A stretch of 27,102 nucleotides of DNA from a virus: positions 1-27,102 of IMG/VR virus record IMGVR_UViG_3300042453_005367. One strand, 5' to 3'. Under the pieces are notes generated by a model. It saw only the letters and a program-made list of their open reading frames with translations, ran no database searches and was not told the origin of the DNA. Shown here one piece after another: positions 3,689 to 20,061 of the stretch (the stretch's first letter is position 1; each line of letters opens with the position of its first letter). The position numbers were made by a program, and so were the translations under genes.

Positions 3689-5146
3689 ATGATATTATGT
3701 GATCCTGCCGCTGAAAGAGCGGTACTATCTGGAATATGCAAATATGGTGAAAATGCATATTTAGACATTGCTGATATATTACAACCGTCAACTTTCACTG
3801 TTGATAGCAATATTATGATATTTCAGATATTAAAAGAGATATGTGAAAAAGAACACAGTCCGTCTATAGATATTGCCTCTATATTGTCTGTGAGCCAATC
3901 TTTAAATTTTGCCCATATATTATCTCAGAAGAATGAAACACAACATTTAAGAGCCATAATAGATTTCCCAGTAAATCTAGAAAATGTTAGAAAATTTGCT
4001 GCAAAAATAAGAAAACTGCAAATAGCAAGACTATTAAGAGATCAGCTCGAAGAAGCAAAAGAGAAACTACTAGATGTAAACGGACAGGAGCCTGTATCGT
4101 CAATAATTGGAATAGCAGAAGATAGCATATTTAATTTTTCGTCATTGCTTAACGATACGGACAATAATCCGGTATCTGTATCTAATATAATTGATGATTA
4201 TATAAATAATATCAAAGAAAACCCTATAGACCAAATAGGGGTGTCAACAGGATTTCATGCTTATGATAATGCCATAGGTGGAGGCTTAAGAAAAGGATCT
4301 GTTAGTATTATAGCTGCTAGGCCAAAAACTGGAAAAACTTTATTAGCTGATAATATTGGTTTACATATAGCTAAAAATAATAAATTACCAGTACTTAATA
4401 TGGATACAGAAATGAGTACTGATGATCATATAAATAGATTATTAGCTATGATGACAGAGATAGAAATAAATAATATAGAGACAGGAAAAGCTTTTGATTC
4501 TGCAGATAAATCCAATAGATTAAAAAATGCTCAAAATGAACTAAAACAAATTAAATTATATTACAAGTCTATAGCTGGTAAACCTTTCGAGGAACAATTA
4601 GCTATTATGAGAAGATGGCTTGTGAAAGAAGTCGGTCTACACTCAGACGGAACCGCTAAAGACTGCGTTATAGTATACGACTACCTTAAGCTTATGGACA
4701 GTCAGGGCATCAGCCAAGACCTTAAGGAATACCAACTCTTAGGATTTATGATGACAAGTTTACATAATTTTGCTGTCAGATATAAGGTTCCTATATTAGG
4801 ATTTATACAACTTAATAGAGATGGCATAACAAAAGAAACCACCGACACCGCATCCGGATCAGATAGAATCATATGGCTATGTAGTAATTTTACAATATTT
4901 AAGCGTAAAAGCGATGAAGAAATAGCCGAAGACGGCCCTAATAATGGAAATAGAAAACTTGTTCCTCTAATTAGTAGACACGGCGGTGGATTAGATGATA
5001 ACGACTATATAAATTGTCATATGAAGGGATGGTGCGCCAAAATAGAAGAAGGTAAAACAAGATTAGAAACACTTAGCAATAACACAGATAAAGGATTCAT
5101 AGTCAATAATGAGCAAAGTAATGACGAAGAAATTCCGTTCATATAA
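3689..5146 (+). CDS. dnaB: DnaB-like replicative helicase
   Basis: 485 residues, normal for DnaB (E. coli 471). The N-terminal domain (1-110, starting DPAAERAVLSGI) matches the usual helical start of DnaB. A linker follows to about 180, then the RecA-like motor. Walker A is ARPKTGKT at 210-217, EMSTDD at about 236-241 is motif H1a, Walker B is VIVYDYLKL with Asp331, and LGFIQLNRDG with RIIWLCSNF lie near 368-410. It unwinds DNA as a hexameric ring and recruits the primase encoded next, whose start overlaps by 38 bases. The extreme C-terminus, NDEEIPFI, resembles the acidic aromatic tip of bacterial SSB. The Walker B region (about 4620-4740) has clearly higher GC than the surrounding gene. Confidence 0.9.
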   Translation: MILCDPAAERAVLSGICKYGENAYLDIADILQPSTFTVDSNIMIFQILKEICEKEHSPSIDIASILSVSQSLNFAHILSQKNETQHLRAIIDFPVNLENVRKFAAKIRKLQIARLLRDQLEEAKEKLLDVNGQEPVSSIIGIAEDSIFNFSSLLNDTDNNPVSVSNIIDDYINNIKENPIDQIGVSTGFHAYDNAIGGGLRKGSVSIIAARPKTGKTLLADNIGLHIAKNNKLPVLNMDTEMSTDDHINRLLAMMTEIEINNIETGKAFDSADKSNRLKNAQNELKQIKLYYKSIAGKPFEEQLAIMRRWLVKEVGLHSDGTAKDCVIVYDYLKLMDSQGISQDLKEYQLLGFMMTSLHNFAVRYKVPILGFIQLNRDGITKETTDTASGSDRIIWLCSNFTIFKRKSDEEIAEDGPNNGNRKLVPLISRHGGGLDDNDYINCHMKGWCAKIEEGKTRLETLSNNTDKGFIVNNEQSNDEEIPFI

Positions 5147-6272: not shown

Positions 6273-6883
6273 TGAATACAAAAATTATAGCATTTTCTGG
6301 ACGAAAACAATCTGGGAAAAGTACTAGTGCTGAATTTACCAAGTCGATCCTAGAAGCTCGTAATATTAGTACCAAAATATATAGTTTTGCAGACCCTCTG
6401 AAACAAGATATATGTATTAATATATTGAACTTAACATATGATCAATGTTATGGTAGTGATGAAGATAAAAATAGTCTTACCAATATTTTATGGGAAAATA
6501 TACCTGGTTATAACGGGTCTTTAAGTGGATATATGACAGCTAGACAAGTTATGGAAGTTTTAGGTACTAGTATTTTTCGTAAAATAAAAAACGATATCTG
6601 GGTTAGGGCAACATTAAATACAATAAAAAGAGAAAATTTTGATATTGCTATTATAGCAGATTGTAGGTTTCCTAACGAGGTGGATGACATTATAAATTCG
6701 AATGGATTCGTTATAAGATTATGCAGAGATTCATTTCGATCAAATGCCGAAGCTGAAACAGCATTAGATAAACAAAACTATAATTGGTCTAATTTTAATT
6801 TGATAATTGATAATAATAATATGGCTATAGAAGAAAAAAATACATATATACAACAATTTTTAATAAATACTGGAATTATATAA
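6272..6883 (+). CDS. Deoxynucleoside monophosphate kinase-like protein
   Basis: 203 residues with an N-terminal P-loop, GRKQSGKS at 10-17. KIYSFADPLKQDI at about 35-47 and TARQVMEVLGTSIFR near 89-103 are typical of phage T4 gp1-like dNMP kinases, and IIADCRFPNEVD near 126-137 supplies the second strand and nucleotide-binding arginine. The enzyme phosphorylates dNMPs to dNDPs, feeding the phage DNA precursor pool. It starts in a TAATG overlap with primase and ends directly against the next ATG. The family assignment is from motif order. Substrate range, including whether it handles modified bases, cannot be read from sequence. Confidence 0.82.
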   Translation: MNTKIIAFSGRKQSGKSTSAEFTKSILEARNISTKIYSFADPLKQDICINILNLTYDQCYGSDEDKNSLTNILWENIPGYNGSLSGYMTARQVMEVLGTSIFRKIKNDIWVRATLNTIKRENFDIAIIADCRFPNEVDDIINSNGFVIRLCRDSFRSNAEAETALDKQNYNWSNFNLIIDNNNMAIEEKNTYIQQFLINTGII

Positions 6884-7927
6884 ATGATTATTACATACTT
6901 TAGAAGTTCTTCATATAATGCTCATAATATGTGTGAGCAGCAGTATTTTTTTGAATATGTTCTTGGATGGCGTGGCCTTAGCGGCTTCAAGGCCGTAAAA
7001 GGAACAATAATGCATAAGGTATTGGAAATACTAGCTATTATAAAAAAAGCACAACAAAATAATGAACAATATGTTATAGATGATGAGATACTTGGTAAAA
7101 TAAATACTAGTGAGTATAATCTTAATTCTATTATTGAAAAAGTATATAAGCATTATAGCGATGCTAATTCCCAACATATATGGTCTATAAAAGATTATAA
7201 AGAATGCTATAATTGGGTTTATAAAGCTATAGAATTTAATAATGGTATGTTTGATCCTAGAAATTGTCAGATATTACAGCCAGAACAAAAATTTGATTTT
7301 ATAATAGAAAAACCTTGGGCTAGATATGAATATGTTGTTAATGGTGAAAAAATAGATGGATACCTAGGATTAAAAGGAACCATAGACCTAATAACACAAA
7401 TAGATGATAAAACCGTAGAAGTTGTTGATTACAAAAGTGGGAAAAGATTAGATTGGGCAACCGGTCAGGAAAAAACACAAGAAAAATTAGAAAAAGATCC
7501 ACAATTAAGAATATACCATTATGCTGTTAAAAAATTATATCCACATCTAGAAACAGTAATATTTACTATATATTTTGTTAATGATGGAGGTCCATTTTCT
7601 ATGGTATTTCATGATAGTGATTTAATAGAAACAGAAAATATGCTGCGTAGTAAATTTGAAATTATTAAAAATACAAGAAAACCAAAATTAAACAGAGGGT
7701 GGATGTGTAGTAAACTATGTCATTTTGGAAAAACAACTTTTGAGAATACCAGTGTTCAACCATTAGACGAATACAGAGACGGACAGACATGCAGGAAAGG
7801 CTCGACAATGACAAAGTGTGAACAGGTAAAACATGATCTTGAACTATACGGAATCGATGCTACAATGAGTATGTATCAGCACCCAAATCATGTTATTGGG
7901 TACTACCAAGCACCTGGGTCTACATGA
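6884..7927 (+). CDS. Cas4/RecB-like PD-(D/E)XK nuclease with a probable Fe-S cluster
   Basis: 347 residues of the PDDEXK_1/AddB-Cas4 type. TYFRSSSYNAHNMCEQQYFF at the start is the usual N-terminal helix with the first cluster cysteine (C17). KGTIMHKVLE near 40-49 carries the conserved His. GTIDLI has Asp168, and EVVDYKSGK at 179-187 gives the D-x-K-type site (D182, K184). Late cysteines C275, C279, C303 and C312 would complete a 4Fe-4S cluster. Such enzymes resect or trim DNA ends in recombination, which fits an operon with recA. The ATG immediately follows the previous stop. From about 7741 on, the gene enters a patch of raised GC that continues into dnaE. No CRISPR array or other cas gene is in the window. 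Confidence 0.85.
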   Translation: MIITYFRSSSYNAHNMCEQQYFFEYVLGWRGLSGFKAVKGTIMHKVLEILAIIKKAQQNNEQYVIDDEILGKINTSEYNLNSIIEKVYKHYSDANSQHIWSIKDYKECYNWVYKAIEFNNGMFDPRNCQILQPEQKFDFIIEKPWARYEYVVNGEKIDGYLGLKGTIDLITQIDDKTVEVVDYKSGKRLDWATGQEKTQEKLEKDPQLRIYHYAVKKLYPHLETVIFTIYFVNDGGPFSMVFHDSDLIETENMLRSKFEIIKNTRKPKLNRGWMCSKLCHFGKTTFENTSVQPLDEYRDGQTCRKGSTMTKCEQVKHDLELYGIDATMSMYQHPNHVIGYYQAPGST

Positions 7928-7933
7928 AAGGAG
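7927..7933 (+). promoter_or_regulatory. Strong Shine-Dalgarno site for the dnaE leader start
   Basis: AAAGGAG, 9 bases before ATG 7943, is one of the best ribosome sites in the window. It argues that translation of the polymerase frame begins at 7943, upstream of the TAA at 7985, and not at the GTG that follows it. The GTG at 7988 has no comparable site of its own. Confidence 0.8.
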
Positions 7934-7942
7934 ATTTTAAGT

Positions 7943-7987
7943 ATGGGCGTGGAGCATAATTATGTGCCTCTTCACGTCCATTCTTAA
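7943..7987 (+). CDS. Start of dnaE PHP domain, ending at an in-frame TAA (leader or interrupted N-terminus)
   Basis: ATG 7943 opens 14 codons (MGVEHNYVPLHVHS) and then meets TAA 7985-7987. The last seven residues match the start of the DnaE PHP domain, where homologues read roughly HLHVHSxxSLLDG, including the metal-binding HxH. The next ORF begins right after the stop, in the same frame, with the continuation of that motif. This is therefore the true 5' end of dnaE and not an unrelated peptide. It may be joined to the main ORF by recoding or may serve as a short upstream cistron that couples translation. The ATG has an excellent ribosome site 9 bases upstream. Confidence 0.7.
   Translation: MGVEHNYVPLHVHS
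7944..7980 (+). promoter_or_regulatory. RNA hairpin over the dnaE leader codons
   Basis: The arm 7944-7954 (TGGGCGTGGAG) pairs with 7970-7980 (CTTCACGTCCA) over 11 bp with two G-U pairs and a 15-base loop that holds a further short palindrome (CATAATTATG). The stem covers the start codon and ends at the codons just before the TAA. It could limit initiation or act as the 5' structure of a recoding site. Its existence is visible in sequence; its function is inferred. Confidence 0.55.
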
Positions 7988-8008
7988 GTGAGATCACATT
8001 TCTCACTT
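7986..8008 (+). promoter_or_regulatory. RNA hairpin directly at the in-frame stop in dnaE
   Basis: AAGTGAGA (7986-7993) pairs perfectly with TCTCACTT (8001-8008) across a 7-base loop (TCACATT). The hairpin begins within the TAA stop and its loop opens with TCA, the possible landing codon for a ribosome that leaves TCT at 7982. Phage T4 gene 60 also has a stem-loop that includes the stop codon right after its take-off codon. The parallel is suggestive, not proof. Confidence 0.55.
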
Positions 8009-9832
8009 TTGGATGGGCTAAGTAAACCAGAAAAAATAGCTGATAAATGCTCCGCATTAGGCATGAGGTCGTGCGCCATAACAGACCACGGCAACATAGC
8101 TGGTACGGTACAATTTTATCAAAAACTTAAATCTAAAAATATAAAACCTATTTTGGGTTGCGAGCTATATATTTGTAATGATGATCCATTAATTAAAAAT
8201 AAAGATAACTCCAAACTCAGTCACCTCCTCATTATTGCTAAAAATTTGCAAGGATGGAAAACTCTTATAAAAATAGTTTCGGAATCTAATAGACCAGAAT
8301 ATTTTTATCACAAACCGAGATTAAGTCTAAATAAATTGGCCAATCTTTTAGATAATAATATTATAGGAATATGTGGACACTTGGGATCTACATTAGCAGA
8401 TATTATCATGGGAGATCAAGATAAATCGATTGTAAATACATTATCTTTTATAGATGGTATGAAAGATATATTCGGAAATGATAATTTTTTTCTAGAAACA
8501 CAATTATTTGATAAAGATTATTTAAAAGAACAAGAATACCTAACGGAAACAGTCCGAAGAGCAGCTTCTTTAGCAAAAGTCAAAGCAGTATGTACCCCAG
8601 ATGCACATTATGTGGATTCTGAGGATGCTATCGATCAAAGAATATTATTATGTAATAATTTAAAAACAACATTATCTGATATTAATACTAAACTTTTAAA
8701 CGATAAAGATGTTCCTATGGAATGTTTCTTTAAAAGCGAGAAGTATTATATACTTTCTCCAGACGAAATGAGGAATATACATACTAAAGAAGAGATAGAA
8801 AATACTTTACTTGTGGATAGTATGATAGAAAATTATGATATACTATCACCACCTAAATTACCAAAATTTAATTGTCCACACAATATGGCTCCTGATGAAT
8901 ATCTCAGAGAGCTATGTCGCAAAGGATGGAAAGATAGAATAGCAAATAGTATTTCAAAAGAGGACCAGGCAAAATATGTTAATAGAATAAAAGACGAATT
9001 AGATATTTTACAAGGGGCCGGGCTTAGTAGTTACTTTCTTATTGTTCAGGATATAGTTAACTATGTCAGGAGTAGTAACTGGCTTCCTGGACCAGGAAGA
9101 GGAAGTTGTGCTGGGTGTCTAGTGTCCTATCTAGTTGGCATTACGGATATTGATCCTATTAAATATAATTTATTATTTGAAAGATTCTATAATAGTGGAA
9201 GAAATACAAAAGATAGAGTATCTATGCCAGATATAGATATGGACGTTCCTATTGACAAAAGAGAGCATGTCTTAGAATATATAAAAAATAAATATGGTAT
9301 TAGTAAAGTCTCACAAATGATTACTTTTAATACCATGAAGGGTCGGGGTGCATTAAAAGATGTTCTAAGAGTATATGGCAATATAAGTTTCGATGAAATG
9401 AATCGTATTACTAAATTTATACCAGACGAAGCGAAGATTGCCGATGAGCTGCAAGAAATGAAAGAAGATACTGGAGAAGCATCTATTATACGATGGGCAT
9501 TAGAAAATAATATTGACAAGCTCAAGGAATGGTGCTATATATCTGATGATGGATCGCTAGCTGGTCCGTTATCAAAAAGATTTGAACAAGCCATAAGACT
9601 GGAAGGTACTAAATCTAATCAGAGTAAACATGCTGCTGGTGTAATTATAGGAACGGAAGATCTATCAACTTTGTGTCCTATGGTTTATGATAATAGAAAT
9701 GAACAGCTTATAGCAGGCATGGAGATGAATGATCTAGAAAGCTTGGGATTAATTAAGTTTGATGTTTTGGGTATAGCTTATTTAGATAAAATTATGTGTG
9801 TATCAGAATATTTAAAAAATGGAGAATTATAA
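7988..9832 (+). CDS. dnaE: DNA polymerase III alpha subunit, N-terminal part (PHP and palm)
   Basis: 614 residues if read from GTG 7988. The frame continues the PHP domain (HFSLLDGLSKPEKIADKC, CAITDHGN, KPILGCELYI). The polymerase palm follows: GPGRGSCAG near 365-373, ITDIDPIKYNLLFERF near 381-396, MPDIDMD with catalytic Asp415 and Asp417, and IKFDVLG with Asp592, the third metal-binding Asp. The fragment stops shortly after and lacks fingers, beta-binding and OB domains, which lie in the ORF at 10726. Both parts must presumably associate to form the replicative polymerase. The real start is probably ATG 7943, whose 14 codons supply the missing HxH of the PHP domain but are cut off by TAA 7985. 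Without them the PHP metal site is incomplete. Other possibilities are reinitiation at GTG 7988, a recent mutation, or an assembly error. Confidence 0.88.
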   Translation: MRSHFSLLDGLSKPEKIADKCSALGMRSCAITDHGNIAGTVQFYQKLKSKNIKPILGCELYICNDDPLIKNKDNSKLSHLLIIAKNLQGWKTLIKIVSESNRPEYFYHKPRLSLNKLANLLDNNIIGICGHLGSTLADIIMGDQDKSIVNTLSFIDGMKDIFGNDNFFLETQLFDKDYLKEQEYLTETVRRAASLAKVKAVCTPDAHYVDSEDAIDQRILLCNNLKTTLSDINTKLLNDKDVPMECFFKSEKYYILSPDEMRNIHTKEEIENTLLVDSMIENYDILSPPKLPKFNCPHNMAPDEYLRELCRKGWKDRIANSISKEDQAKYVNRIKDELDILQGAGLSSYFLIVQDIVNYVRSSNWLPGPGRGSCAGCLVSYLVGITDIDPIKYNLLFERFYNSGRNTKDRVSMPDIDMDVPIDKREHVLEYIKNKYGISKVSQMITFNTMKGRGALKDVLRVYGNISFDEMNRITKFIPDEAKIADELQEMKEDTGEASIIRWALENNIDKLKEWCYISDDGSLAGPLSKRFEQAIRLEGTKSNQSKHAAGVIIGTEDLSTLCPMVYDNRNEQLIAGMEMNDLESLGLIKFDVLGIAYLDKIMCVSEYLKNGEL

Positions 9833-9833
9833 A

Positions 9834-10016
9834 ATGTTAACAAAAACTCTAGATCAAGTGGCTGTTAATGAAAAATTTGTAGTTAATGGCATAGAATATA
9901 TAAAAGCAGAAGAGGTTAGAGTTAGTTGTTGCAGAAGTACAAACTGTTATGTCTCTGCGGATTCTAACCAAAAAACATTTTTCCCAGGTAATACTGTAGT
10001 GGAGACCAATGGCTAA
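9834..10016 (+). CDS. Small conserved-looking phage protein between the dnaE halves
   Basis: 60 residues from ATG 9834, chosen because GGAG at 9821-9824 lies 9 bases upstream and the start follows the dnaE stop by one base; an earlier in-frame ATG at 9819 lies within dnaE and has no such site. The sequence (VVNGIEYIKAEEVRVSCC near 17-34, then TFFPGNTVV near 47-55) predicts a small beta-rich fold. Two adjacent cysteines and a third at about residue 38 (C33, C34, C38) could bind metal, but no known motif is met. Small proteins of this look are common in phage genomes with no assigned job. The end overlaps the exonuclease start by 8 bases. Confidence 0.6.
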   Translation: MLTKTLDQVAVNEKFVVNGIEYIKAEEVRVSCCRSTNCYVSADSNQKTFFPGNTVVETNG

Positions 10017-10701
10017 TTTACAAAAAATTTGTGTTTTCGATTTAGAAACAGACGGCGTAAACCCTGATGTTTGCAGTCCAGTCCAGATAGCTGCTCTAAT
10101 TATAGATCCATATAAATTAGAGATTATAAAAGATTCAGAATTTAATATTAATATTAAACCATATATGTTGGAGGAGAATCCATTATATATCTATGATGAT
10201 AGTGACGTTCTGGATTTTCATGCAAAAGTAAGGGGATGCGATAAGTCTAAGATATTAGATGATTGGAAATCATATCAGCCTCAAGACAATGGATGGAAAA
10301 TGTTTATATCCTATTTGGAGAAGTACCACACTAGATCTGATAAAAAGTCCTGTTTTACCGCTCCTATAGCAGCAGGGTATAATATAAATAGGTTCGATCT
10401 TAGAATTATAGAAAAATTGAGTTTAAAATATAATAATCTAAATAAAGAAGGAAGATCATCTATCTTCTATCCAAGGGATGTTATAGATCTCATGAATATT
10501 ATTTTTTATTGGTTCGAAGGTAATAATGAGCTTAAAAATTATACACTAGATAATGTCAGAGAGTATCTAGGTATAAACACTGCTGGATCACACGATGCTA
10601 TGAATGACGTAAGGGCAACAGCCGATATACTAATAAGATTCATGAAATTACACAGAAATTTATCAAATAAAGTTAAATTTAAAAAAGCTTTTACGAACTA
10701 A
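10009..10701 (+). CDS. dnaQ: DnaQ-like DEDDh 3'-5' exonuclease
   Basis: 230 residues with all three exonuclease motifs: FDLETDG with D11 and E13 (Exo I), GYNINRFDLRI with D130 (Exo II), and SHDAMNDVRATAD with H195 and D200 (Exo III, DEDDh type). In bacteria the equivalent epsilon subunit proofreads for DnaE. Lying between the two halves of dnaE, it almost certainly proofreads for this polymerase. It overlaps the small upstream gene by 8 bases. Its stop TAA is in the same frame as the dnaE C-part, which begins 24 bases later. A DnaQ-like role in RNA or repair processing is a less likely alternative. Confidence 0.88.
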   Translation: MANLQKICVFDLETDGVNPDVCSPVQIAALIIDPYKLEIIKDSEFNINIKPYMLEENPLYIYDDSDVLDFHAKVRGCDKSKILDDWKSYQPQDNGWKMFISYLEKYHTRSDKKSCFTAPIAAGYNINRFDLRIIEKLSLKYNNLNKEGRSSIFYPRDVIDLMNIIFYWFEGNNELKNYTLDNVREYLGINTAGSHDAMNDVRATADILIRFMKLHRNLSNKVKFKKAFTN

Positions 10702-10725
10702 GCTAAAATAGTAAGCATATTATAT

Positions 10726-12339
10726 ATGGATAAGTATTATCGTTTTGATTGTGGGTGTCAGTTTAAAATTCTAGACTCAGATGATAAGAATGGTCTTAAA
10801 ATAGAATTTAATGGCAAAATACCAGACACGACCCTTGATTGTTTAAAAACATGGGATATGATAGCAGACGGTAATACGAAAGGGGTATTTCAATTAGAAT
10901 CTAGACTAGGATCTAGTATGGCCCGAAAGCTTAAACCAGAAAATATAGAGCAACTTTCTGCATTAATAAGCATAATGAGGCCAGGATCATTAGAAGCATA
11001 CAGGGATGGAAAGAGTGTTAGTCATCACTATATAGATAGGAAAAACCAAGAAGAGAGCGTTGATTACTTTCATCCTTCATTGAAGCCATTATTAGAGTCA
11101 ACATATGGAGAGATGATTTATCAGGAACAGGCTATGCAAATTACACAAGCTATTGCTGGATTTGATTTGCAAGAAGCGGATATGTTAAGAAAAGCCATCG
11201 GAAAAAAGAAGCCAGAAGAGATGGCAAAGATAAAAATCAAATTCAAAGACGGGGCTAAAAAATTGGGGATAGTTAGCGAAGAAGAGGCCGAAGAAATCTT
11301 TGGATGGGTAGAAAAATCACAAAGATATAGTTTTAATTTATCCCATGCTGTTTCTTATGCTATGAACGCATATTCCTCAGCATATGCAAAGGCGCATTTT
11401 CCAAAAGCATTTTTTGCGTCTTATCTGAAATTTGCGAAAGATAAAATGGATCCGCAGAAAGAGATAAAAGAGCTTATAAGAAATGCAACAGAAATGGAGA
11501 TATCGGTATCTGTTCCAGATTTAAGAAAACTTAATAAGCATTTTTCTATATATGATAATAAAATTTATTTTGGATTAACCGATATCAAAGGCGTTGGTTA
11601 CTCTGTTTTTGAAAAAATAATACAATTATCTGAAAATATAGATCTTAAAAATATTACATGGCAAACATTATTAGTTAAGCTATTAACTAAAATTAATTCC
11701 ACAGCAGTAAAAGCATTGATATCTTGCGGCGCTATTGATTATTATGGAATTTCAAGAACAAAAATGTTATTTGAGTACGATATTATTTCTGAATTAACCC
11801 AAAGAGAAATTGAATTATTGGATACTAGTACTAACTCTATTAATGAATCACTATATAAACTTTATAATTCAAGCAAGATAAATACCAAAAGAAGAAATAG
11901 CATAAATAATCTAATGAGTCTTTATGACCATCCTCCTTACTCATTAACAGATAAAATAGAGTGGCTATCTGATACAGAAAATTCTTTGCTTGGAGCATCA
12001 ATAACATGCTTTAAGATAGACTCATATGATGTTAGCATGACTAATTGCGATTGTAAAGATTTTAAAAGAACAAATTTGTCTAAAAATATTATTATAGCTG
12101 GTGAAATCAGCTCTATTAATTTTACAAAAACAAAAAATGGAAAAAATCCTGGATCAGAAATGGCCTTTATTACTATTGAGGATCAGATAGCAAGCCTTGA
12201 CTCTGTAGTAGTTTTTCCAGAGCAATTATCTAAATATAGAAATTACCTATTCGAAGGAAATGTTCTAATATTTGTAGGAAATAAAAACAACAAAAAAGAT
12301 TCTTTCATTGTTGAAAAATGTTATATACCAAAGTCTTGA
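10726..12339 (+). CDS. dnaE: DNA polymerase III alpha subunit, C-terminal part (fingers, HhH and OB)
   Basis: 537 residues. After a short Cys-containing start (YYRFDCGCQFKI, C9 and C11), LDCLKTWDMI and TKGVFQLES near 51-59 join the family at the start of the fingers. ISIMRPGSLEAYRDG, YGEMIYQEQAMQI, ADMLRKAIGKKKPEEM and FNLSHAVSYAMNAYSSAYAK are classic DnaE fingers and beta-binding motifs. GLTDIKGVGYSVFEKII near 284-300 is the helix-hairpin-helix and IIIAGEISSI (about 447-456) begins the OB fold. It supplies what the N-part lacks. No Shine-Dalgarno is seen before ATG 10726, and there are 24 bases from the exonuclease stop in the same frame, so its translation may depend on upstream ribosomes. 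No intein residues are present at the split. Confidence 0.9.
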   Translation: MDKYYRFDCGCQFKILDSDDKNGLKIEFNGKIPDTTLDCLKTWDMIADGNTKGVFQLESRLGSSMARKLKPENIEQLSALISIMRPGSLEAYRDGKSVSHHYIDRKNQEESVDYFHPSLKPLLESTYGEMIYQEQAMQITQAIAGFDLQEADMLRKAIGKKKPEEMAKIKIKFKDGAKKLGIVSEEEAEEIFGWVEKSQRYSFNLSHAVSYAMNAYSSAYAKAHFPKAFFASYLKFAKDKMDPQKEIKELIRNATEMEISVSVPDLRKLNKHFSIYDNKIYFGLTDIKGVGYSVFEKIIQLSENIDLKNITWQTLLVKLLTKINSTAVKALISCGAIDYYGISRTKMLFEYDIISELTQREIELLDTSTNSINESLYKLYNSSKINTKRRNSINNLMSLYDHPPYSLTDKIEWLSDTENSLLGASITCFKIDSYDVSMTNCDCKDFKRTNLSKNIIIAGEISSINFTKTKNGKNPGSEMAFITIEDQIASLDSVVVFPEQLSKYRNYLFEGNVLIFVGNKNNKKDSFIVEKCYIPKS

Positions 12340-12847: not shown

Positions 12848-14497
12848 ATGAAAAAATCTAAATTAAAAATTCTCATGTGTTCAGAAGCCAGTTTTATTAA
12901 TTCTGGTTTCGGTAAGTACGCTTATGAATTTTTGTCTAGACTTCATAAAACCAATAAATATGTTATAGCCGAATTCGCATCATATGGATATGTAAATGAT
13001 CCTAGAGATAAAAAAATAGATTGGATATATTATGCTAATGCTGTTAGAGATGGAGACCCTAGATTTAGAGAATATAATTCTAGAACAGATAATCAGTTTG
13101 GAAGATGGAGATTCGAAAAAGTACTATTAGATTTTAAGCCCGATGTTGTTGTAGACGTAAGAGATTATTGGATGACTAACTATCAACCAATTTCTCCATT
13201 AAGACCATATTTTCATCATATACTCATGCCAACAGTTGATTCAGCGCCACAACAGCATGAATGGGTGGATAATTTTTTATCAACCGATGCGATTTTTACA
13301 TATAGCGATTGGGGAGCAGAAGTTCTTAAAGCTCAAACTAATAATAAAATAAATTATATCGCCACGGCCACACCTGGAGTAAATCTGGATATCTTCTATA
13401 TAAAAAATAAAATAGATATGAAAAAATTTCTTAATATAGATCCGAATTCTTTTATTATAGGTTCTGTTATGAGAAATCAAAAGCGTAAACTTATTCCAGA
13501 ATTATTCTTATCTATTAAAAAATTACTATCATATTTAAAAAATAATGGATATAAAAAAAATGTATATCTATATTTACATACTACATACCCAGATATGGGA
13601 TGGGATATTCCAGAATTATTGAATGACTATGGAATATCTAATAATGTGCTTTTTACATATTTATGTAAGCAGTGTGGGCACATTGAAGCTCGTACATTTT
13701 GTGGCCCCCAAAAGGTTTGTGAAAAATGTACAAATAAATCTTCAGCATTTCCTTCGGTGTCTAATGGAGTATCAGAGGAGAGACTGAGCGATATTTATAA
13801 CACATTTGATCTTTATGTACAATATTCTATTTGTGAAGGATTGGGTATTCCTCAAGTGGAAGCTGGGGCATGTGGTATTCCTATAGCAACAGTAAATTAT
13901 AGTGCTATGATGGATATCATAAATAAATTAAATGCTACTCCTATTAAGATACAAAGCTATTTTACAGAACTAGAAACTAAAGCTGTGAGGGTCTATCCTG
14001 ATAATGATGATCTCGTTAGGATTATACTAGATGAAATAGCCAAGCCAGATCCAATAAGGGATAGTGAACGACATAAAGTCAGAGAGCTTACAGAAAAACA
14101 TTATAGTTGGAATAAAATAATTAAAATATGGGAAAACTATTTTGATAATTTAGAATTTAGATCCGATTGGAGTACTCGGTTGCCCATATATAAAAATATA
14201 GATGGAAATATAGATAACAATAAAACAAATATAGACCGTCTAATAAATATCTGTAATAATAATTTAAAAAATACCGATCTATTATCGTCTACTAGATTTT
14301 TACAAATGTTACAAAATTCAGATTATGGATTCGCTACTGCTGGGCCAACTCAGATTGTAGAATATTCGATTAATAATTTATACGACCATATTAATAATAT
14401 TATAGATAATAATAATAAATCTGAAGAAGCTAGGAGACACAATCAAATATTTCAAGAAGATTTTATACAATACGCGCACTTAAAAAATAATATATGA
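12848..14497 (+). CDS. GT4-family glycosyltransferase with an internal Cys4 zinc knuckle
   Basis: 549 residues with the GT-B arrangement. N-terminal domain: ILMCSEASFINSGFGKYAYE near 9-28, VVDVRDYWM near 99-107. C-terminal domain: SVMRNQKRKLIPELFLS near 206-222, SDIYNTFDLYVQY, then the E-x7-E motif SICEGLGIPQVEAGACGIP with E330 and E338. Within the C-terminal domain, C273-x2-C276, C285 and C291-x2-C294 form a probable zinc knuckle that ordinary GT4 enzymes lack. About 140 extra residues follow the normal end. It probably transfers a sugar from a nucleotide donor to an unknown target. The start codon sits directly after the ssb terminator with no visible ribosome site. It heads a run of sugar-related genes and overlaps the next by 4 bases. 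Confidence 0.85.
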   Translation: MKKSKLKILMCSEASFINSGFGKYAYEFLSRLHKTNKYVIAEFASYGYVNDPRDKKIDWIYYANAVRDGDPRFREYNSRTDNQFGRWRFEKVLLDFKPDVVVDVRDYWMTNYQPISPLRPYFHHILMPTVDSAPQQHEWVDNFLSTDAIFTYSDWGAEVLKAQTNNKINYIATATPGVNLDIFYIKNKIDMKKFLNIDPNSFIIGSVMRNQKRKLIPELFLSIKKLLSYLKNNGYKKNVYLYLHTTYPDMGWDIPELLNDYGISNNVLFTYLCKQCGHIEARTFCGPQKVCEKCTNKSSAFPSVSNGVSEERLSDIYNTFDLYVQYSICEGLGIPQVEAGACGIPIATVNYSAMMDIINKLNATPIKIQSYFTELETKAVRVYPDNDDLVRIILDEIAKPDPIRDSERHKVRELTEKHYSWNKIIKIWENYFDNLEFRSDWSTRLPIYKNIDGNIDNNKTNIDRLINICNNNLKNTDLLSSTRFLQMLQNSDYGFATAGPTQIVEYSINNLYDHINNIIDNNNKSEEARRHNQIFQEDFIQYAHLKNNI

Positions 14498-15468
14498 ATA
14501 TACTTTATATAGGACCATATAGAATCAATCATAGTATAGGTTACGAATCTCTAAATATTTTATTAGATATAAGTAGCGATACCAGTAGCACTACTGTTTC
14601 TAGGCCAATATTTGCCATAGAGAATAAACAATCAGAGTTAAGTAATATCAACAATATATTATTTACTTTAGAGAATAAACTATTACAAAAAACAGATCTA
14701 CTAGTACAACACTTAGATATAGATAGTATGCAGTATAATTCTAAATTTTCAAAACATATTTTTATACCAATAATTCATAAAACCAACATACCAACAAATA
14801 CGCAAAAAGAAAAATTTAAATTTTTAAGCACAAAAGGATTATTTCTTTATAAAAACAATATAGAAAAATCTATACTAGATAGTATACATATACATAATAA
14901 AGAATCTATTGACATAGAGATAGACGATAATTTAGCCTATAAATCTAAAGATTTTTTTAATTTAGGCATATATAATATATATAAAAAATACTACTCAATA
15001 GTAGAAGCCGCAGCAGATAGAGAGAATATAGAAAATCTAATTATTAATTTTATTCAATGCTTCCATAAAGAAAACAACTGCCTAATTCTTTTTGTCCAAA
15101 ATATGGATAAGTCCAATAATGATCATTATGTATCATTTATAAAAAATATATATAATAATTTAAACATATCATATAATATTAATAAAATTATATTAATTCC
15201 AATAGAACTAAATATAAAAAATATTGGCATTATCCACAATACTGGTAATATCTATATAGATATAAATCAAGACATCAATAGATGCTATGCTATAAAATAT
15301 AAAAAACCTATCATAGAAAATTCATCAGATATCAAAATCACTTATACTGGCACAAGATTAAATAATATAAGTAAACTATACCATACTGATCAAATAGATT
15401 TACTATCAGATAGATATATATCATCATACAATACGTCCATAAAAAAAATTATTAATAATTATGTTTAG
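14494..15468 (+). CDS. Unknown, divergent glycosyltransferase-like protein
   Basis: 324 residues, ATGA overlap with the previous gene and 8-base overlap with the next. The N-terminus MNILYIGPYRINHSIGYESL resembles the first strand and loop of GT-B glycosyltransferases. Later strands (LILFVQNMDKSNND, KIILIPIEL, NTGNIYIDIN) recall their second Rossmann domain. The E-x7-E donor-binding motif is not recognisable. The gene is extremely AT-rich, with runs of Ile, Asn and Lys. It may be a catalytically altered or inactive relative that works with the GT4 enzyme upstream. Confidence 0.5.
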   Translation: MNILYIGPYRINHSIGYESLNILLDISSDTSSTTVSRPIFAIENKQSELSNINNILFTLENKLLQKTDLLVQHLDIDSMQYNSKFSKHIFIPIIHKTNIPTNTQKEKFKFLSTKGLFLYKNNIEKSILDSIHIHNKESIDIEIDDNLAYKSKDFFNLGIYNIYKKYYSIVEAAADRENIENLIINFIQCFHKENNCLILFVQNMDKSNNDHYVSFIKNIYNNLNISYNINKIILIPIELNIKNIGIIHNTGNIYIDINQDINRCYAIKYKKPIIENSSDIKITYTGTRLNNISKLYHTDQIDLLSDRYISSYNTSIKKIINNYV

Positions 15469-16324
15469 CAAAATAGCGGTTTCTAATTCAATATATAGAA
15501 CTATTTCTCGACTAGAGTTTAGTAATATTTTATCTATCACTAAATCTAAGAGCTTATTCAATTCATTTATTTTTAAGGATAATGATTATATAAATATAAT
15601 ACAAGAGCCGAATCAACCGTTTGATGCTTTTTTACACGACGATCCTTTAATTGTATCTGAAAAAATAATAGACCTATATTATACATATAATGTTCCTCTT
15701 ATAGTTTTTTTTCATAAAAAACCAAGACATGATCTTAAAAAAGAAGATAAATACTTGCTTTCTAAAAAACTAGAAAGTAGCTATAAAATATTTTTTTCTG
15801 AAGATATTAAGCAATCATGGGCTCAATCCGATAATCTTTCCTTTTTATTAAGGTACGGGTTTCCAGCTATGGATACTGACTATTCTAATAGGCAAAAAAA
15901 TATTATTATATTAAATTTGAACAAAAATCCAGTTATAAATAGCATATACGAATATATTAATAATTATTTTAGAGACTGCGATATGTTATCGGAGATAGAC
16001 CATAACATACCAAATATAGTATCTCAGTACAAAATAGCCATATCTATTGACGACATATATGATACATTGTTCTGCGCTGCTTGTGGGTGCTCAGTATTGA
16101 CTCCTGAGATATATAATAATTCTTTAACTAGTGTCTATACTATTACAGACTATAATAATATTATTACGCAAATTAATAATATCAATAATGACGATATTAG
16201 TATAAAAAATATTAAAGACACACAAAATTTTATTAAATTAAACTATGATAGCATAGATTTATTTTATAAAGCATTTAACAGCAATATACTTAACAACCTT
16301 AAATATAGAATACCTAATTTATGA
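15461..16324 (+). CDS. Unknown, divergent glycosyltransferase-like protein
   Basis: 287 residues overlapping both neighbours. The N-terminal half alternates strands and loops (DAFLHDDPLIVSEKI, YNVPLIVFFHKKPR) as in GT-B acceptor domains. The C-terminal half has LFCAACGCSVLTPEIYN (about 204-220), which recalls the 'ACGxPVL' segment of GT4 donor domains, though the expected Glu pair is missing. It is very AT-rich. Placement in a sugar gene run supports the family idea. A fold prediction would decide it. Confidence 0.5.
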   Translation: MFSKIAVSNSIYRTISRLEFSNILSITKSKSLFNSFIFKDNDYINIIQEPNQPFDAFLHDDPLIVSEKIIDLYYTYNVPLIVFFHKKPRHDLKKEDKYLLSKKLESSYKIFFSEDIKQSWAQSDNLSFLLRYGFPAMDTDYSNRQKNIIILNLNKNPVINSIYEYINNYFRDCDMLSEIDHNIPNIVSQYKIAISIDDIYDTLFCAACGCSVLTPEIYNNSLTSVYTITDYNNIITQINNINNDDISIKNIKDTQNFIKLNYDSIDLFYKAFNSNILNNLKYRIPNL

Positions 16325-16740
16325 ATCGTAATATCTCAATTATCATTGATCCATCTCAAGAAAAAAATGATTATATACATATCAATAATATATCATCTAT
16401 AATTAATTATTCCTGTGATTCTATAATAATAAATTGTTTAGAGTATCTTATGGAGAAAGATCATAATATTATTATAAAAATGCTACTTGATAAGCTCAGA
16501 CCCTATGGTAAATTAATTATAAGTATTAATAATGCTCATAATATAGCTCAGAATTTTATTAATAGAAGTATATCTAATAATGATTTTTTGAAATTCTTTT
16601 CTAATAAACAAAGTTTATTATCTTTGGAGTCATTATATTCATATATAGACTTTAATTATTTTGAACTTATAAATTTAGATATAAATGAACAATTTTATAT
16701 TATAACCTTAGAGAAAAAAAATGAACAACACACTATGTAA
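16321..16740 (+). CDS. Methyltransferase-like half domain
   Basis: 139 residues. IINCLEYLMEKDHNIIIKMLLDKLRPYGKLIISINN (in segments near 38-75) matches the centre of class I SAM-dependent methyltransferases, where a line such as 'LRPGGKLIIS' follows the adenine-binding strand. FELINLDINEQFYIITLEKK is the closing beta hairpin. The usual N-terminal SAM-binding glycine loop (GxGxG) is not visible in the first 35 residues, so catalysis is doubtful. It starts in an ATGA overlap and ends 20 bases inside the next gene. Confidence 0.5.
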   Translation: MNRNISIIIDPSQEKNDYIHINNISSIINYSCDSIIINCLEYLMEKDHNIIIKMLLDKLRPYGKLIISINNAHNIAQNFINRSISNNDFLKFFSNKQSLLSLESLYSYIDFNYFELINLDINEQFYIITLEKKNEQHTM

Positions 16741-17446
16741 AAAATGTATATTTGCAGAATCTATGGATAGCGACAATCCATGCTCTTTCGATATACCTAG
16801 TATAATACAAAAAAGTGGCAGATTAGAGAACGAGGATGGTTTTTATAAAATTAATAACTATACATGTAGATATGGCTTTAGCAAAGAGATATACGAAAAA
16901 AATATTGATAAATTTTCAAATATTGATATGATCGAGTATGTTAAAACACAAAATATAGTTAAATATTCTATGATACTATTGATTAGTAATACCTCTTATA
17001 ATAGCGAAATTATTAAAAAAATATCCACAATATCCATATTGCCTGAATACATAACAATAATTTGTTATCAAGACGGAGGATTAATTCAGCACGATATGCT
17101 CAGATATAACCCTGCAATAAAATATAAAATCCATAATTTTCTAGAGACTGTTTCTTATGAAAAAGCAATCCATATCGCACTAGAAACTAATAAGAATAAA
17201 TTAAGTAATCTTATATGGATTATAAAGGATACTAGTGTTTCTACATACATAGAGAATGATAGTATACAAAATATAAATTATCTCATCAATGTCATGCAGA
17301 ATCCTGCGTTTTATTATAAATCTTCAAAATTAAATTCTCAATTAGATGGTGTTTTTATTAATACTGATAATTATGACACATTATCTAGTAATATCGAATA
17401 TAAAATATATGATGATGAAAAAATTATAACGGAATTTTATGATTGA
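16721..17446 (+). CDS. Unknown protein with N-terminal Cys cluster and GT-A-like core
   Basis: 241 residues. Cysteines C6-x2-C9, C21 and C49 with the surrounding CKKCIFAES, NPCSFDIP and NYTCRYGFS look like a metal-binding module. Residues 80-110 (SMILLISNTSYNSEIIKKIS, then ITIICYQDGG) recall the start of GT-A glycosyltransferases, but a DxD metal motif is not obvious. Later strands (LIWIIKDTSV) fit a Rossmann-like fold. It lies among sugar-related genes and overlaps both neighbours. The Cys cluster could bind zinc or iron-sulphur. Confidence 0.5.
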   Translation: MNNTLCKKCIFAESMDSDNPCSFDIPSIIQKSGRLENEDGFYKINNYTCRYGFSKEIYEKNIDKFSNIDMIEYVKTQNIVKYSMILLISNTSYNSEIIKKISTISILPEYITIICYQDGGLIQHDMLRYNPAIKYKIHNFLETVSYEKAIHIALETNKNKLSNLIWIIKDTSVSTYIENDSIQNINYLINVMQNPAFYYKSSKLNSQLDGVFINTDNYDTLSSNIEYKIYDDEKIITEFYD

Positions 17447-18104
17447 TATATTATTAATATGCCCAGAAATTACAAAAGGCATGAAGTCCATAGGATCAAA
17501 ATGTTTATTACAGCTCAAAAAAAATATGACCCTAGTAGAATATCAAATAATTCAATTACAAAAAATTAAATCTTCTAGAATAACAATTAATATAGGATTC
17601 GATTCTGAAAAAATTATTAGTATATTACAAAAATATAAAAAAATAAACTATACTATTAATAGTAACTATAATAACACTAATCATGGAACTAATTTAATAT
17701 CATATATAAAAAAATATAGTCCTAAAAATTTATTGGTTTTTAGTAGTGGCGTATTGATTAAAAATGATATTATTGATAAAAAATTTTTGACTGATAAAAA
17801 TAAAATTTTTGTCCTGAATAAGACAAAACAAAATTTTAATCTAGGATGTTGCAACACAGAGAATATCGAGTATATCTTTTATGATATGCCTGAACCTTGG
17901 TCGGAGATAGTTTTTTTAAATACAGAAGCTATTGAATTACTTTTATCATATAATGAAGACTATTTCAATCAGATGTATTTATTTGAAATTATAAATTTTT
18001 TATTAAAACATAATATAGAGTTTGATAAGATATATCTAAATAAAACAGATTTAATGAAAATAGAAAATATAAAAGATTTACAGACAGCGAAGTTATTTAT
18101 ATGA
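17439..18104 (+). CDS. Sugar nucleotidyltransferase-like protein
   Basis: 221 residues. ILLICPEITKGMKSIGSKCLLQL with TLVEYQIIQLQKIK follows the pattern of MobA/CTP-type nucleotidyltransferases (glycine-rich loop, Lys, then 'L-E-Y-Q-I'). NSNYNNTNHGTNLISYIKK near 73-91 matches the 'N-P-x-Y-x-x-T-N-x-x-S-L' block of the family. The strand LLVFSSGVLI has Ser-Ser where active members have the metal-binding Gly-Asp, so the enzyme may be inactive or altered. A role in activating a sugar or alcohol for the glycosyltransferases beside it is likely by context. Overlaps are 8 and 4 bases. Confidence 0.55.
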   Translation: MIDILLICPEITKGMKSIGSKCLLQLKKNMTLVEYQIIQLQKIKSSRITINIGFDSEKIISILQKYKKINYTINSNYNNTNHGTNLISYIKKYSPKNLLVFSSGVLIKNDIIDKKFLTDKNKIFVLNKTKQNFNLGCCNTENIEYIFYDMPEPWSEIVFLNTEAIELLLSYNEDYFNQMYLFEIINFLLKHNIEFDKIYLNKTDLMKIENIKDLQTAKLFI

Positions 18105-18835
18105 AAAAAATACTAGTCCAATATATAGATGATAAGTTTATTAATAATATTAAACTATCTGATACAAATTTTTGTGAGAAAATAATTATTGATACAAAAA
18201 ATAGACTATATCAGATATATTATGAGTATGGTTTTACAGATATTATCTTTATAGACTCTCTTCTTGGAGATGAAGAAAAACAATTTATTAATGAATTTGG
18301 AAATAATATAAATATTTATATTTATCAAAACACAAAATCTAACAACTATATTCATACTAATACTAAATTATTAAAGGGTATTTTATCTAAAATAAGAAAC
18401 GATAATTCTAATTATAGAACTATACACATATCTAAATTAGTTAATTATGATATCTTTTTTATGGATAAAACTCAGACAAAACAGAATACTATTATTTCGT
18501 TTCTTGATAATATAGAGTCATTGCCAAAAGAATTAAACGAATATTTATATCCTAATTCTACATTACCTATAAAATTATTTAATAACTCTTCAATAATACA
18601 TCCTCAAAATCTTGGACTATTATCAGAAATAGATAAAGCCTCAATATTACAGCAGAGCAAATACTATCTGGTATTAGACGGGTCGGAAGATTATATACCG
18701 GAAGCATGGTCTTGCGGATGCTCGGTATTATGTTATGAGGACTTAACTAGTTTAATACCAACAAAATATAAACACTCAGAAAATTTTAGATCATATTCTA
18801 ATTTTTTAAAGGAATTATTTCGTGATAAAAAATAA
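18101..18835 (+). CDS. GT-B-like protein with a GT4-type donor-site remnant
   Basis: 244 residues. The C-terminal third reads NLGLLSEIDKASILQQSKYY, then DGSEDYIPEAWSCGCSVLCYE (about 201-217), close to the donor-binding end of GT4 glycosyltransferases: a 'stage' helix, a Glu, then A-x-x-C-G-C. The N-terminal two thirds are weakly conserved and very AT-rich. The full E-x7-E is not present, since only E208 is obvious. It starts in an ATGA overlap, ends 14 bases inside the next gene, and probably functions with its neighbours. Confidence 0.5.
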   Translation: MKKILVQYIDDKFINNIKLSDTNFCEKIIIDTKNRLYQIYYEYGFTDIIFIDSLLGDEEKQFINEFGNNINIYIYQNTKSNNYIHTNTKLLKGILSKIRNDNSNYRTIHISKLVNYDIFFMDKTQTKQNTIISFLDNIESLPKELNEYLYPNSTLPIKLFNNSSIIHPQNLGLLSEIDKASILQQSKYYLVLDGSEDYIPEAWSCGCSVLCYEDLTSLIPTKYKHSENFRSYSNFLKELFRDKK

Positions 18836-19283
18836 TCTTGGCTTTCTATTGCCATACATAGATAATACTGCAGAATATAATATTATATTTCAAAATATAT
18901 CTAAACTAATAAAACATAATATATATACAAATATAGTGATCTTTAATAGTAGATGTGATAAAGTATCTACCGATAATATCCCAATACTACATATAAATCA
19001 TGCTAAATTTTTTAAAGGAGATTTATTTCTTTTTGACATATCAGGATTAATATTGACTAAACAATTCACTAATATTAATAAAAAATTACTCTATTGCAAT
19101 GATATGCCATGGATAAAAATTAGAAATAATAATTACAGAGAATGGGAAAATCTATACTGTTCTAATACTATCGATTTTATTGTTACGAATAAATATTTAT
19201 ATGACATATATTCATTATCTTGGAAAGAGCCTATAGGAATAATGGAGAGTTTTGATTATGAAAAAATCCAAAAATTATTATGA
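18822..19283 (+). CDS. Unknown small GT-B N-domain-like protein
   Basis: 153 residues. GFLLPYIDNTAEYNIIFQNI, then NIVIFNSRC and GDLFLFDISGLI have the alternating strands of a glycosyltransferase acceptor domain. IVTNKYLYDIYSLSWKEPIGIMESFDYE closes the protein. There is no donor-binding domain, so this is either a natural small protein or a fragment. It may have lost its C-terminal half where the endonuclease gene begins (19258), since the two overlap by 26 bases. Confidence 0.5.
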   Translation: MIKNNLGFLLPYIDNTAEYNIIFQNISKLIKHNIYTNIVIFNSRCDKVSTDNIPILHINHAKFFKGDLFLFDISGLILTKQFTNINKKLLYCNDMPWIKIRNNNYREWENLYCSNTIDFIVTNKYLYDIYSLSWKEPIGIMESFDYEKIQKLL

Positions 19284-20061
19284 TAATTTATCAGATATTG
19301 ATAAAAAAGACTTAATTATCAAAATGTATACTAATGAAAATAAAAGTTTCGCAGATATAGCCGCTGAGATCAACACATACTCTAATAAGGTTAGAAGAGA
19401 TGCTATTAAATTTAATATAAAAATAAGAGATAAAAGCGAAGCCCAAAAGAATGCTTTAAAAACCGGCAAACACTCTCATCCAACTAAGGGTAAGCAAAGA
19501 CCAGATGATATTAAAGAAAAAATTGGACTGAGTGTTATGAATTCGTGGGAGAACTTGGATGATAATGAAATCAAAAAGAGAAAACTTAAAGCTAAACAGA
19601 ATTGGGATAATTTAGATGATAGTGTCAAAAAAAATATACTAAAATCTGCCAATAATGCAGTTAGAGAAACCAGCAAAACAGGATCCAAACTAGAAAAATA
19701 TATACATAAAAAATTATTAGCCGATGGCTATAAAGTAGAATTTCATAAAGAGCAAACACTGGTAAATACACGATTGCAGATAGATCTGTTTTTACCTACT
19801 ATAAGTTTGGCAATAGAAATTGATGGACCGTCACATTTCTCTCCAGTCTGGGGAGAAAAATCATTAAATAGAAATAGAAACTATGATTCAAAAAAAGAAG
19901 GACTAATTCTAGGAAAAGGATGGAGTATAATTCGTGTTACACAGAAAAAAGACTATTCTGAGTCACGAGCATCTCTGGTTTACAATAAACTAGCATTCAC
20001 AATAAAAAATAATTATAAATTAATACAAGCAGGCCAGCAAAAATTCACCATAGAGGACTAA
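19258..20061 (+). CDS. Homing-type endonuclease (PD-(D/E)XK, DUF559/Vsr-like, with NUMOD-like part)
   Basis: 267 residues from ATG 19258, which has GGAG about 10 bases upstream; an in-frame TTG at 19252 is too close to that site. The N-terminus has a helix-turn-helix pattern (SFADIAAEINTYSNKVRRDA, about 30-49). TGKHSHPTKGKQRPDDIKEK near 67-86 is like the NUMOD3 DNA-binding repeat of homing nucleases. The C-terminal nuclease core is KLEKYIHKKLLADGYKV, LQIDLFLP with D176, LAIEIDGPSHF with E187 and D189, and GWSIIRVTQ. It would cut DNA at one site and may be a free-standing homing gene. It lies at the edge of the AT-rich sugar run and starts inside the preceding gene. Target site and activity are not readable. 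Confidence 0.7.
   Translation: MKKSKNYYDNLSDIDKKDLIIKMYTNENKSFADIAAEINTYSNKVRRDAIKFNIKIRDKSEAQKNALKTGKHSHPTKGKQRPDDIKEKIGLSVMNSWENLDDNEIKKRKLKAKQNWDNLDDSVKKNILKSANNAVRETSKTGSKLEKYIHKKLLADGYKVEFHKEQTLVNTRLQIDLFLPTISLAIEIDGPSHFSPVWGEKSLNRNRNYDSKKEGLILGKGWSIIRVTQKKDYSESRASLVYNKLAFTIKNNYKLIQAGQQKFTIED

Follow-up and report, generated by a model that had tools for sequence, protein, structure and literature searches.

The 27,102-nucleotide stretch of viral DNA analyzed here (IMG/VR record IMGVR_UViG_3300042453_005367, positions 1 to 27,102; hereafter the window) very probably encodes a two-gene phage replicase whose first gene, the N-part of dnaE, carries a mobile programmed ribosomal bypass element, that is, a short gap within the coding sequence over which the ribosome would slide without translating it. 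Comparison with the sequences of related phages documents the insert, its conservation, its two hairpins, its link to an endonuclease gene and its horizontal movement.

The preliminary description of this locus implied that the N-part starts at a GTG at position 7988, which is wrong: 7988 lies within the insert and the gene begins at ATG 7943 (plus strand, as are all features listed for the polymerase locus). The start is preceded by a Shine-Dalgarno (SD)-like AAAGGAGA (7927..7934), and relatives that bear the endonuclease have AAGGAG at the matching place, within the 3′ end of the endonuclease open reading frame (ORF). The 5′ coding segment MGVEHNYVPLHVHS (7943..7984) runs from this ATG through the HxH motif of the PHP domain to a TCT codon (7982-7984), the proposed take-off codon. 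It is followed by the proposed bypassed gap, TAAGTGAGATCA (7985..7996), which in codons reads TAA GTG AGA TCA, with the stop codon TAA at its head (7985-7987) and the proposed landing triplet TCA at its end (7994-7996). Decoding would resume at CAT 7997, the sequence continuing CAT TTC TCA CTT TTG GAT, such that HFSLLDG follows the 12-nt gap and the remainder of the N-part, with its PHP and palm domains, occupies 7997..9832 (Pfam, PHROGs and alignment). The protein start of relatives is M..Y(V/I)PLH(V/A/C)HS(H/M)(Y/F)SLLDG, and in those that are plain, i.e., uninserted, the gap is absent. The HNH endonuclease gene is absent from the window, where the hop element with its gap remains.

The relatives are uncultured phages on metagenome contigs, with loci given L numbers. 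Readable starts in 228 loci (L155, which contains Ns, was dropped) comprised 123 plain starts, 105 with an insert at exactly this PHP-motif site and none of any other kind; the share of 105/228 is inflated by scans for the insert pattern, and in two protein-found sets that have some contigs in common the inserted share was 18/77 and 15/78. Among 45 distinct cassettes the gap measured 8 nt in 3, 9 in 11, 10 in 13, 11 in 16 and 12 in 2, and all three frames occur, on which ground stop-codon reassignment was rejected. A stop codon stands directly after the take-off codon in 45/45 (TAA 25, TAG 18, TGA 2), and TGG, which the search pattern permitted at this position, was never seen. The take-off codon is always TCT (27) or TCC (18), while plain relatives, including 72 distinct protein-found starts, use all six Ser codons. 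The segment before the gap, the leader, is 39 or 42 nt long in 44/44, and between near-identical leaders (28 pairs with ≤4 leader differences) the gap differs by 1–2 nt; an indel-prone stretch flanked by two strictly framed coding stretches looks like the signature of a gap that is skipped. Strong copies of the cassette were found once in each of 17 inserted records and in none of 3 plain controls, and a multi-copy element was rejected, the next-best match away from the site in the inserted records having an E value of 0.0076.

Both sides of the gap behave as parts of a working gene. The Leu of the leader is written in five codon forms and is Leu in 45/45, and its Pro is kept in 44/45; behind the gap, 39/42 inserted loci have an ORF that runs on for 590 aa or more, and the three without an open ORF hold a further insert in the gene, intein-like in L114. 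That all of the data are metagenome contigs might suggest sequencing or assembly errors, or dead genes, and this is the least credible of the alternatives, given 45 distinct cassettes with paired changes from many separate IMG/VR records and the state of the downstream ORF just described. Scored against the PHP profile, the bypass product reaches 127.4 bits, the readthrough product 118.6, the product of a GTG start 116.2 and that of a TTG start 105.1. A simple frameshift or readthrough of the stop would suit the 13/45 gaps that are multiples of three, but gaps of 8, 9, 10, 11 and 12 nt need differing events among relatives, those divisible by three contain an in-frame stop, and the readthrough product lies 9 bits below that of bypassing, such that this explanation, too, is very unlikely.

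The cassette is framed by two hairpins. The 5′ hairpin of the window pairs a left arm that contains the start codon, ATGGGCGTG (7943..7951), with a right arm formed by the His-Val-His codons, CACGTCCAT (7973..7981), as seen in the minimum free energy (MFE) fold; the 3′ or A-site hairpin, AAGTGAGA, loop, TCTCACTT (7986..8008), starts inside the stop codon. The 5′ helix between the start codon region and the His-x-His codons retains 9/9 pairs in 38/45 cassettes, 8 in 5 and 7 in 2, a mean of 8.80 of 9 against a maximum of 8.64 in 10,000 reshuffles, and plain relatives average 4.5. Compensatory changes are found in it, GTG/CAC becoming ATG/CAT and GAC/GTC becoming GCA/TGC, the latter with replacement of Val by Cys. 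The first six pairs of the 3′ stem behind the stop are complete in 39/45 and number five in the remaining 6, with a mean of 5.87 against ≤5.6 in 2,000 reshuffles (best of two registers). Changes on both sides of pairs amounted to 12 cells, compared with 3.3 in shuffles and 0/500 (23 sequences). The fold of the window reaches −32.9 kcal/mol (z −3.86, 0/200 shuffles), and mean MFE was −28.1 for 45 inserted starts versus −11.8 for 75 plain ones (over ~97 and ~90 nt, respectively).

From these features a mechanism can be proposed in which the ribosome would read up to the TCY codon with the stop codon in its A site, where the hairpin that starts inside the stop codon would occupy that site and peptidyl-tRNA-Ser would release. 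The ribosome would then slide 8–12 nt while the 5′ hairpin of start codon and His-Val-His codons refolds behind it, and would land on an nC(T/C/A) triplet, restoring exactly the canonical LHVHSHFSLLDG.

Two other ways of making a polymerase from such a gene have to be considered. The leader might be a peptide of 13–14 codons that ends at the stop, with the polymerase re-initiated at a GTG, ATG or TTG just behind it. An in-frame GTG just after the stop in 12/45 and an ATG in 11/45 are in keeping with this, as is the stretch after the stop, which to our eye has an SD-like appearance, and an in-frame TTG at LLDG in 42/45 cassettes speaks for re-initiation and against bypassing. Set against this, 2/45 have no ATG, GTG or TTG before LLDG and 20 have TTG only; the re-initiated product lacks the His-x-His of PHP and scores lower for that domain; and the Leu and Pro codons of the leader vary synonymously, but for one Pro, and match the N-termini of plain relatives. 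We consider re-initiation improbable, though less so than the other alternatives. Removal at the RNA level, in which some splicing process excises the 8–12 nt from the mRNA, would be expected to give the same product as bypassing and agrees with the exact ends and structured nature of the gap, but it gives no reason for a frame-0 stop right after a Ser codon and the cassette has no match to an Rfam family in 7 sources. Nor do we know of any intron this small, and splicing seems to us a quite unlikely solution.

A source for the bypass cassette is indicated by an HNH endonuclease ORF of ~240 aa that adjoins it in 12/55 inserted upstream regions (complete in 8, truncated by a contig end in 2, a remnant in 2) and has its end within the cassette. 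Two of these proteins were scanned, and PHROGs assigned both to HNH; Pfam gave no match for the endonuclease at cut-off. The clearest case is a pair of loci that are near-identical behind the start (98–100%, +60 to +900), L255 as the occupied and L256 as the empty site. The order in L255 is the old start MKNYIPLHAHSH, a stop and the HNH ORF, after which the new start leads into the gap and HDSLLDG, and in L139 MKNYIPLHVHAH and a stop are retained at the place that matches the stranded old 5′ end of L255. Because these two loci keep the old 5′ end upstream, the endonuclease gene is read as having entered dnaE itself and supplied a replacement 5′ end, the gap being the seam. In the scheme that we propose, a homing HNH endonuclease gene would invade dnaE, by cutting, where the PHP motif LHxHS^(H/M)(Y/F)SLLDG is encoded. 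With it would come an SD sequence and start codon of its own and a second copy of the opening codons (MDVxxxYVPLHVHS), and its junction to the host gene would be a short non-coding gap with a stop codon at its head.

Mobility of the cassette is further shown by its distribution. On a quick tree of 124 N-parts the inserted state requires at least 18 changes, 12 of them forced by well-supported branches; shuffled labels need 37, such that the inserted state is clustered as well. The leaders of the window and of L130 are identical at 42/42 positions, whereas gene identity falls to 68% behind this stretch and 69% before it, and by these sequence comparisons the cassette moves horizontally. L016–L018, in which the SD sequence and leader are kept and the gap is gone, look like ghosts of former insertions. 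By eye, a TTTTGGTGTATA-like stretch is common to L255 (1994-2045) and to places before the HNH ORF in L139 and L116, and might serve the endonuclease gene as promoter. Separately, six loci (L024, L082, L126, L142, L143, L168) have a second HNH ORF about 1.1–1.6 kb before LLDG, which directly precedes a PD-(D/E)XK nuclease gene and has no bypass there.

The nearest known system is gene 60 of phage T4, in which the ribosome stalls at GGA-UAG while a stem-loop forms in the A site; folding of the 5′ stem-loop behind it accompanies the slide, which ends with landing on GGA (PMC11194080, PMC5009743). Common to both systems are a stop right after the take-off codon, a 5′ stem-loop, an A-site stem-loop, the joining of out-of-frame ORFs, an adjacent HNH endonuclease gene that split the host gene (mobA in T4), and an overlap of the homing endonuclease gene (HEG) with its neighbor (PMC5009743, PMC11194080, PMC3014915, PMC2988022). 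The cassette differs in its gap of 8–12 nt rather than about 50 nt and in a Ser TCY take-off codon rather than Gly GGA with a landing codon that is often unmatched. It resides in the gene of a C-family DNA polymerase, it exists in many natural variants where gene 60 offers one, and, unlike gene 60, it re-supplies the 5′ end of its gene. The byp elements of Magnusiomyces capitatus mitochondria are likewise inserts in coding sequence that are skipped in translation (PMC5009743), but in that source they number 81 in 12 genes of one genome, whereas the cassette occurs once per phage genome in the 17 inserted records and is linked to a HEG. A 2010 review describes programmed bypassing as apparently unique to gene 60 (PMC3014915), and Streptomyces phage Hau3 is a suspected case (PMC5009743). 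A blastn search for a cultured relative of the cassette, with 136 bases against 50,697 phage records and by a method insensitive for short queries, gave nothing at E ≤ 1, and no report of a dnaE bypass or of a phage dnaE split without an intein was found among the open-licence papers listed.

Several observations weigh against the bypass reading or its tie to an endonuclease. The cassette set was partly collected by a pattern that fixes CATTCN-TRR; all 14 distinct inserted starts that came from protein searches, independent of this pattern, likewise read GTC-CAT-TCY. Immediately ahead of the resume codon stands TCT in 15, TCA in 11, ACT in 10, GCT in 6, TCC in 2 and GCC in 1 of the 45 cassettes, such that the landing triplet is cognate to the take-off box (TCT/TCC) in only 17/45, the others being TCA (11/45) or ACT, GCT or GCC (17/45). 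RNAalifold alone favors a GUCCAUUC:GGAUGGAC pairing that precludes the 5′ helix, and MFE folds contain the 5′ helix in 32/45 and the 3′ hairpin in 41/45; by analogy with several T4 stem-loops, the 5′ helix and the alternative pairing may form at different times. The KKYK signal of T4, placed 25–30 residues from the P site, is impossible in a nascent chain of 13–14 residues. No endonuclease match was found in 39/55 inserted regions, four more have one only at a distance of 1.1–1.6 kb, and at the plain loci L162 and L163 a related HNH ORF lies at the polymerase start. With these points included, we lean toward viewing the cassette as a portable translational intron, in which a bypass of 8–12 nt would be set mainly by two hairpins and a stop, with relaxed landing and no distant nascent-peptide signal. 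The HNH homing endonuclease would have carried this intron into the codons of the PHP active site across an entire family of phage polymerases, and the intron could outlast the endonuclease in polymerase lineages that have lost it. The 45 natural variants in gap, stop, stem and landing triplet, far more than the T4 case provides, form a ready-made mutational series from which the contributions of the stop, the hairpins, the nascent chain and codon matching can be told apart, and the occupied and empty pair gives direct sequence support for homing endonucleases as the origin of bypass inserts.

The gene that hosts the cassette is itself one half of a polymerase. The ORFs, their order and the split proved to be as the preliminary description had them: the N-part is followed by a small conserved protein of 60 aa with no assigned function (9834..10016), a DnaQ-like 3′-5′ exonuclease (10009..10701; phrog_192 1.4e-24, RNase_T 7.8e-10) and the C-part with fingers, HHH and OB (10726..12339; profile matches and alignment to Escherichia coli). 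By Pfam the N-part consists of PHP and DNA_pol3_alpha and the C-part of DNA_pol3_finger and HHH_6; PHP, the palm Asp triad, fingers and HHH, the features of a C-family DNA polymerase (DnaE), are thus all present. The three catalytic Asp that had been assigned to the N-part are D415, D417 and D592, invariant among 13 aligned N-parts. Residues 30–347 of the C-part align to residues 585–899 of E. coli Pol III alpha, and since the alignment begins at residue 585 the break sits just before the fingers, as had been claimed. No intein or Hint domain was found by Pfam in either part of the window, again in line with the earlier account, and trans-splicing of the halves by an intein was set aside for lack of such a domain at the ends; the 60-aa ORF has 0 PHROG or Pfam matches. 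An intron across the small ORF and exonuclease was likewise set aside, both ORFs being present and overlapping in relatives, with no Rfam match. Taken at the level of genes, the alpha subunit of the replicase is encoded by two of them with the proofreader gene between, and the halves most likely assemble non-covalently, which is made plausible by other split phage enzymes that function as two polypeptides (PMC2988022).

A search for relatives of the C-part found 239 viral contigs, and in the best 80, which were kept, tblastn detected the exonuclease in 80, the N-part in 79 and the small ORF in 73, the sole locus without an N-part (L059) being cut by a contig end. Relatives likewise carry the small protein and the exonuclease between the two parts. 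N- and C-parts are separate, 810–4511 nt apart, in 202/202 loci with both readable (several of which overlap on one contig), and because relatives share it in this way the split is neither a frameshift nor an assembly break, the origin that the preliminary description had named as its refutation. Relatives with a single dnaE, the other half of that refutation, do exist at a distance. When L151, the member that diverges most, was used as the query, 27 loci came up, of which 26 are split; the exception is L261, a distant relative (39% to L151) whose dnaE is one continuous gene with a linker of the ordinary kind. In cultured phages all matches are <60% identical; 17 records occur in both top-40 lists, with 24–172 nt between their two matches, a spacing that, judged by distance alone, suggests one undivided gene. 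Read from these loci, the split is real and old, being present in every near relative examined, and since only distant relatives (L261 and the cultured phages) look single-gene it would have arisen once or a few times within this phage group. Cyanobacterial split-intein DnaE is also encoded by two genes (PMC3919608), but the phage dnaE has no intein domain at the ends, breaks before the fingers and has genes between its parts. In split gene 43 of Aeromonas phages 25 and 44RR and split nrdA of phage Aeh1, the pieces of the enzyme cooperate and are HEG-associated (PMC2988022); gene 43 encodes a B-type polymerase, whereas the dnaE described here is split in every near relative read.

The C-part begins with an N-terminal extension (10726..10815) that has CGC at codons 9–11 and that the preliminary description, from its FDCGCQF, took for an addition to ordinary DnaE and perhaps an interface made for the split. 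The peculiar start is a feature of the clade, with a CGC segment of this type in 131/135 distinct segments, one of the 135 being the unsplit L261. In 128/128 readable CGC-bearing segments (3 more are unreadable) the C-x-C is accompanied by a third Cys immediately ahead of the fingers, and Asp stands at the position of this Cys in 4/4 segments without CGC. The proposal of an interface made for the split is weakened: since three split lineages (L251, L255/L256 and L257) lack both the segment and the third Cys, the split does not require it. The C-x-C and third Cys hint at a metal-binding mini-domain; among 14 N-parts, no Cys that could be a fourth partner tracks the presence of CGC. An AF2 model of the C-part shows extension strands at 4–6, 12–19 and 23–26 with a local pLDDT of about 65–73, and because the overall pLDDT is a middling 69.7 no claim was built on its detail. 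The family thus offers a two-piece replicative polymerase with possible new interface parts.

Other inserts occur in and around these genes. In L009–L015 (about 7400-8500) and L020 (7411-8519) an insertion of ~1.1 kb interrupts the palm-coding region of the N-part gene and contains an ORF that by our own reading is LAGLIDADG-like, and Rfam found no intron in the inserts of L009 and L020. Intein-like inserts are placed at GPGRG^S of the N-part in L053 (7189-8281) and L255 (about 3925-4390), the latter with weak Hint/intein Pfam matches below cut-off. In L008 an HNH-like ORF (8403-9134) stands between the N-part and small ORF, and in L080 3.6 kb (6352-9995) separate exonuclease and C-part and include a DUF1559/N-methylation protein, a type that we take to be common in Planctomycetota and a possible clue to the host. 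Four loci (3 close relatives) are contained in metagenome-assembled genomes of three unrelated groups, and host assignment from this membership was discarded, the binning being untrustworthy. No tRNA was found in the window, where two ORFs (19252-20061 and 2403-2810) presumably resemble VSR/EDxHD-type endonucleases and the replication genes are followed by what we take to be a run of glycosyltransferase-like ORFs (12848-18835).

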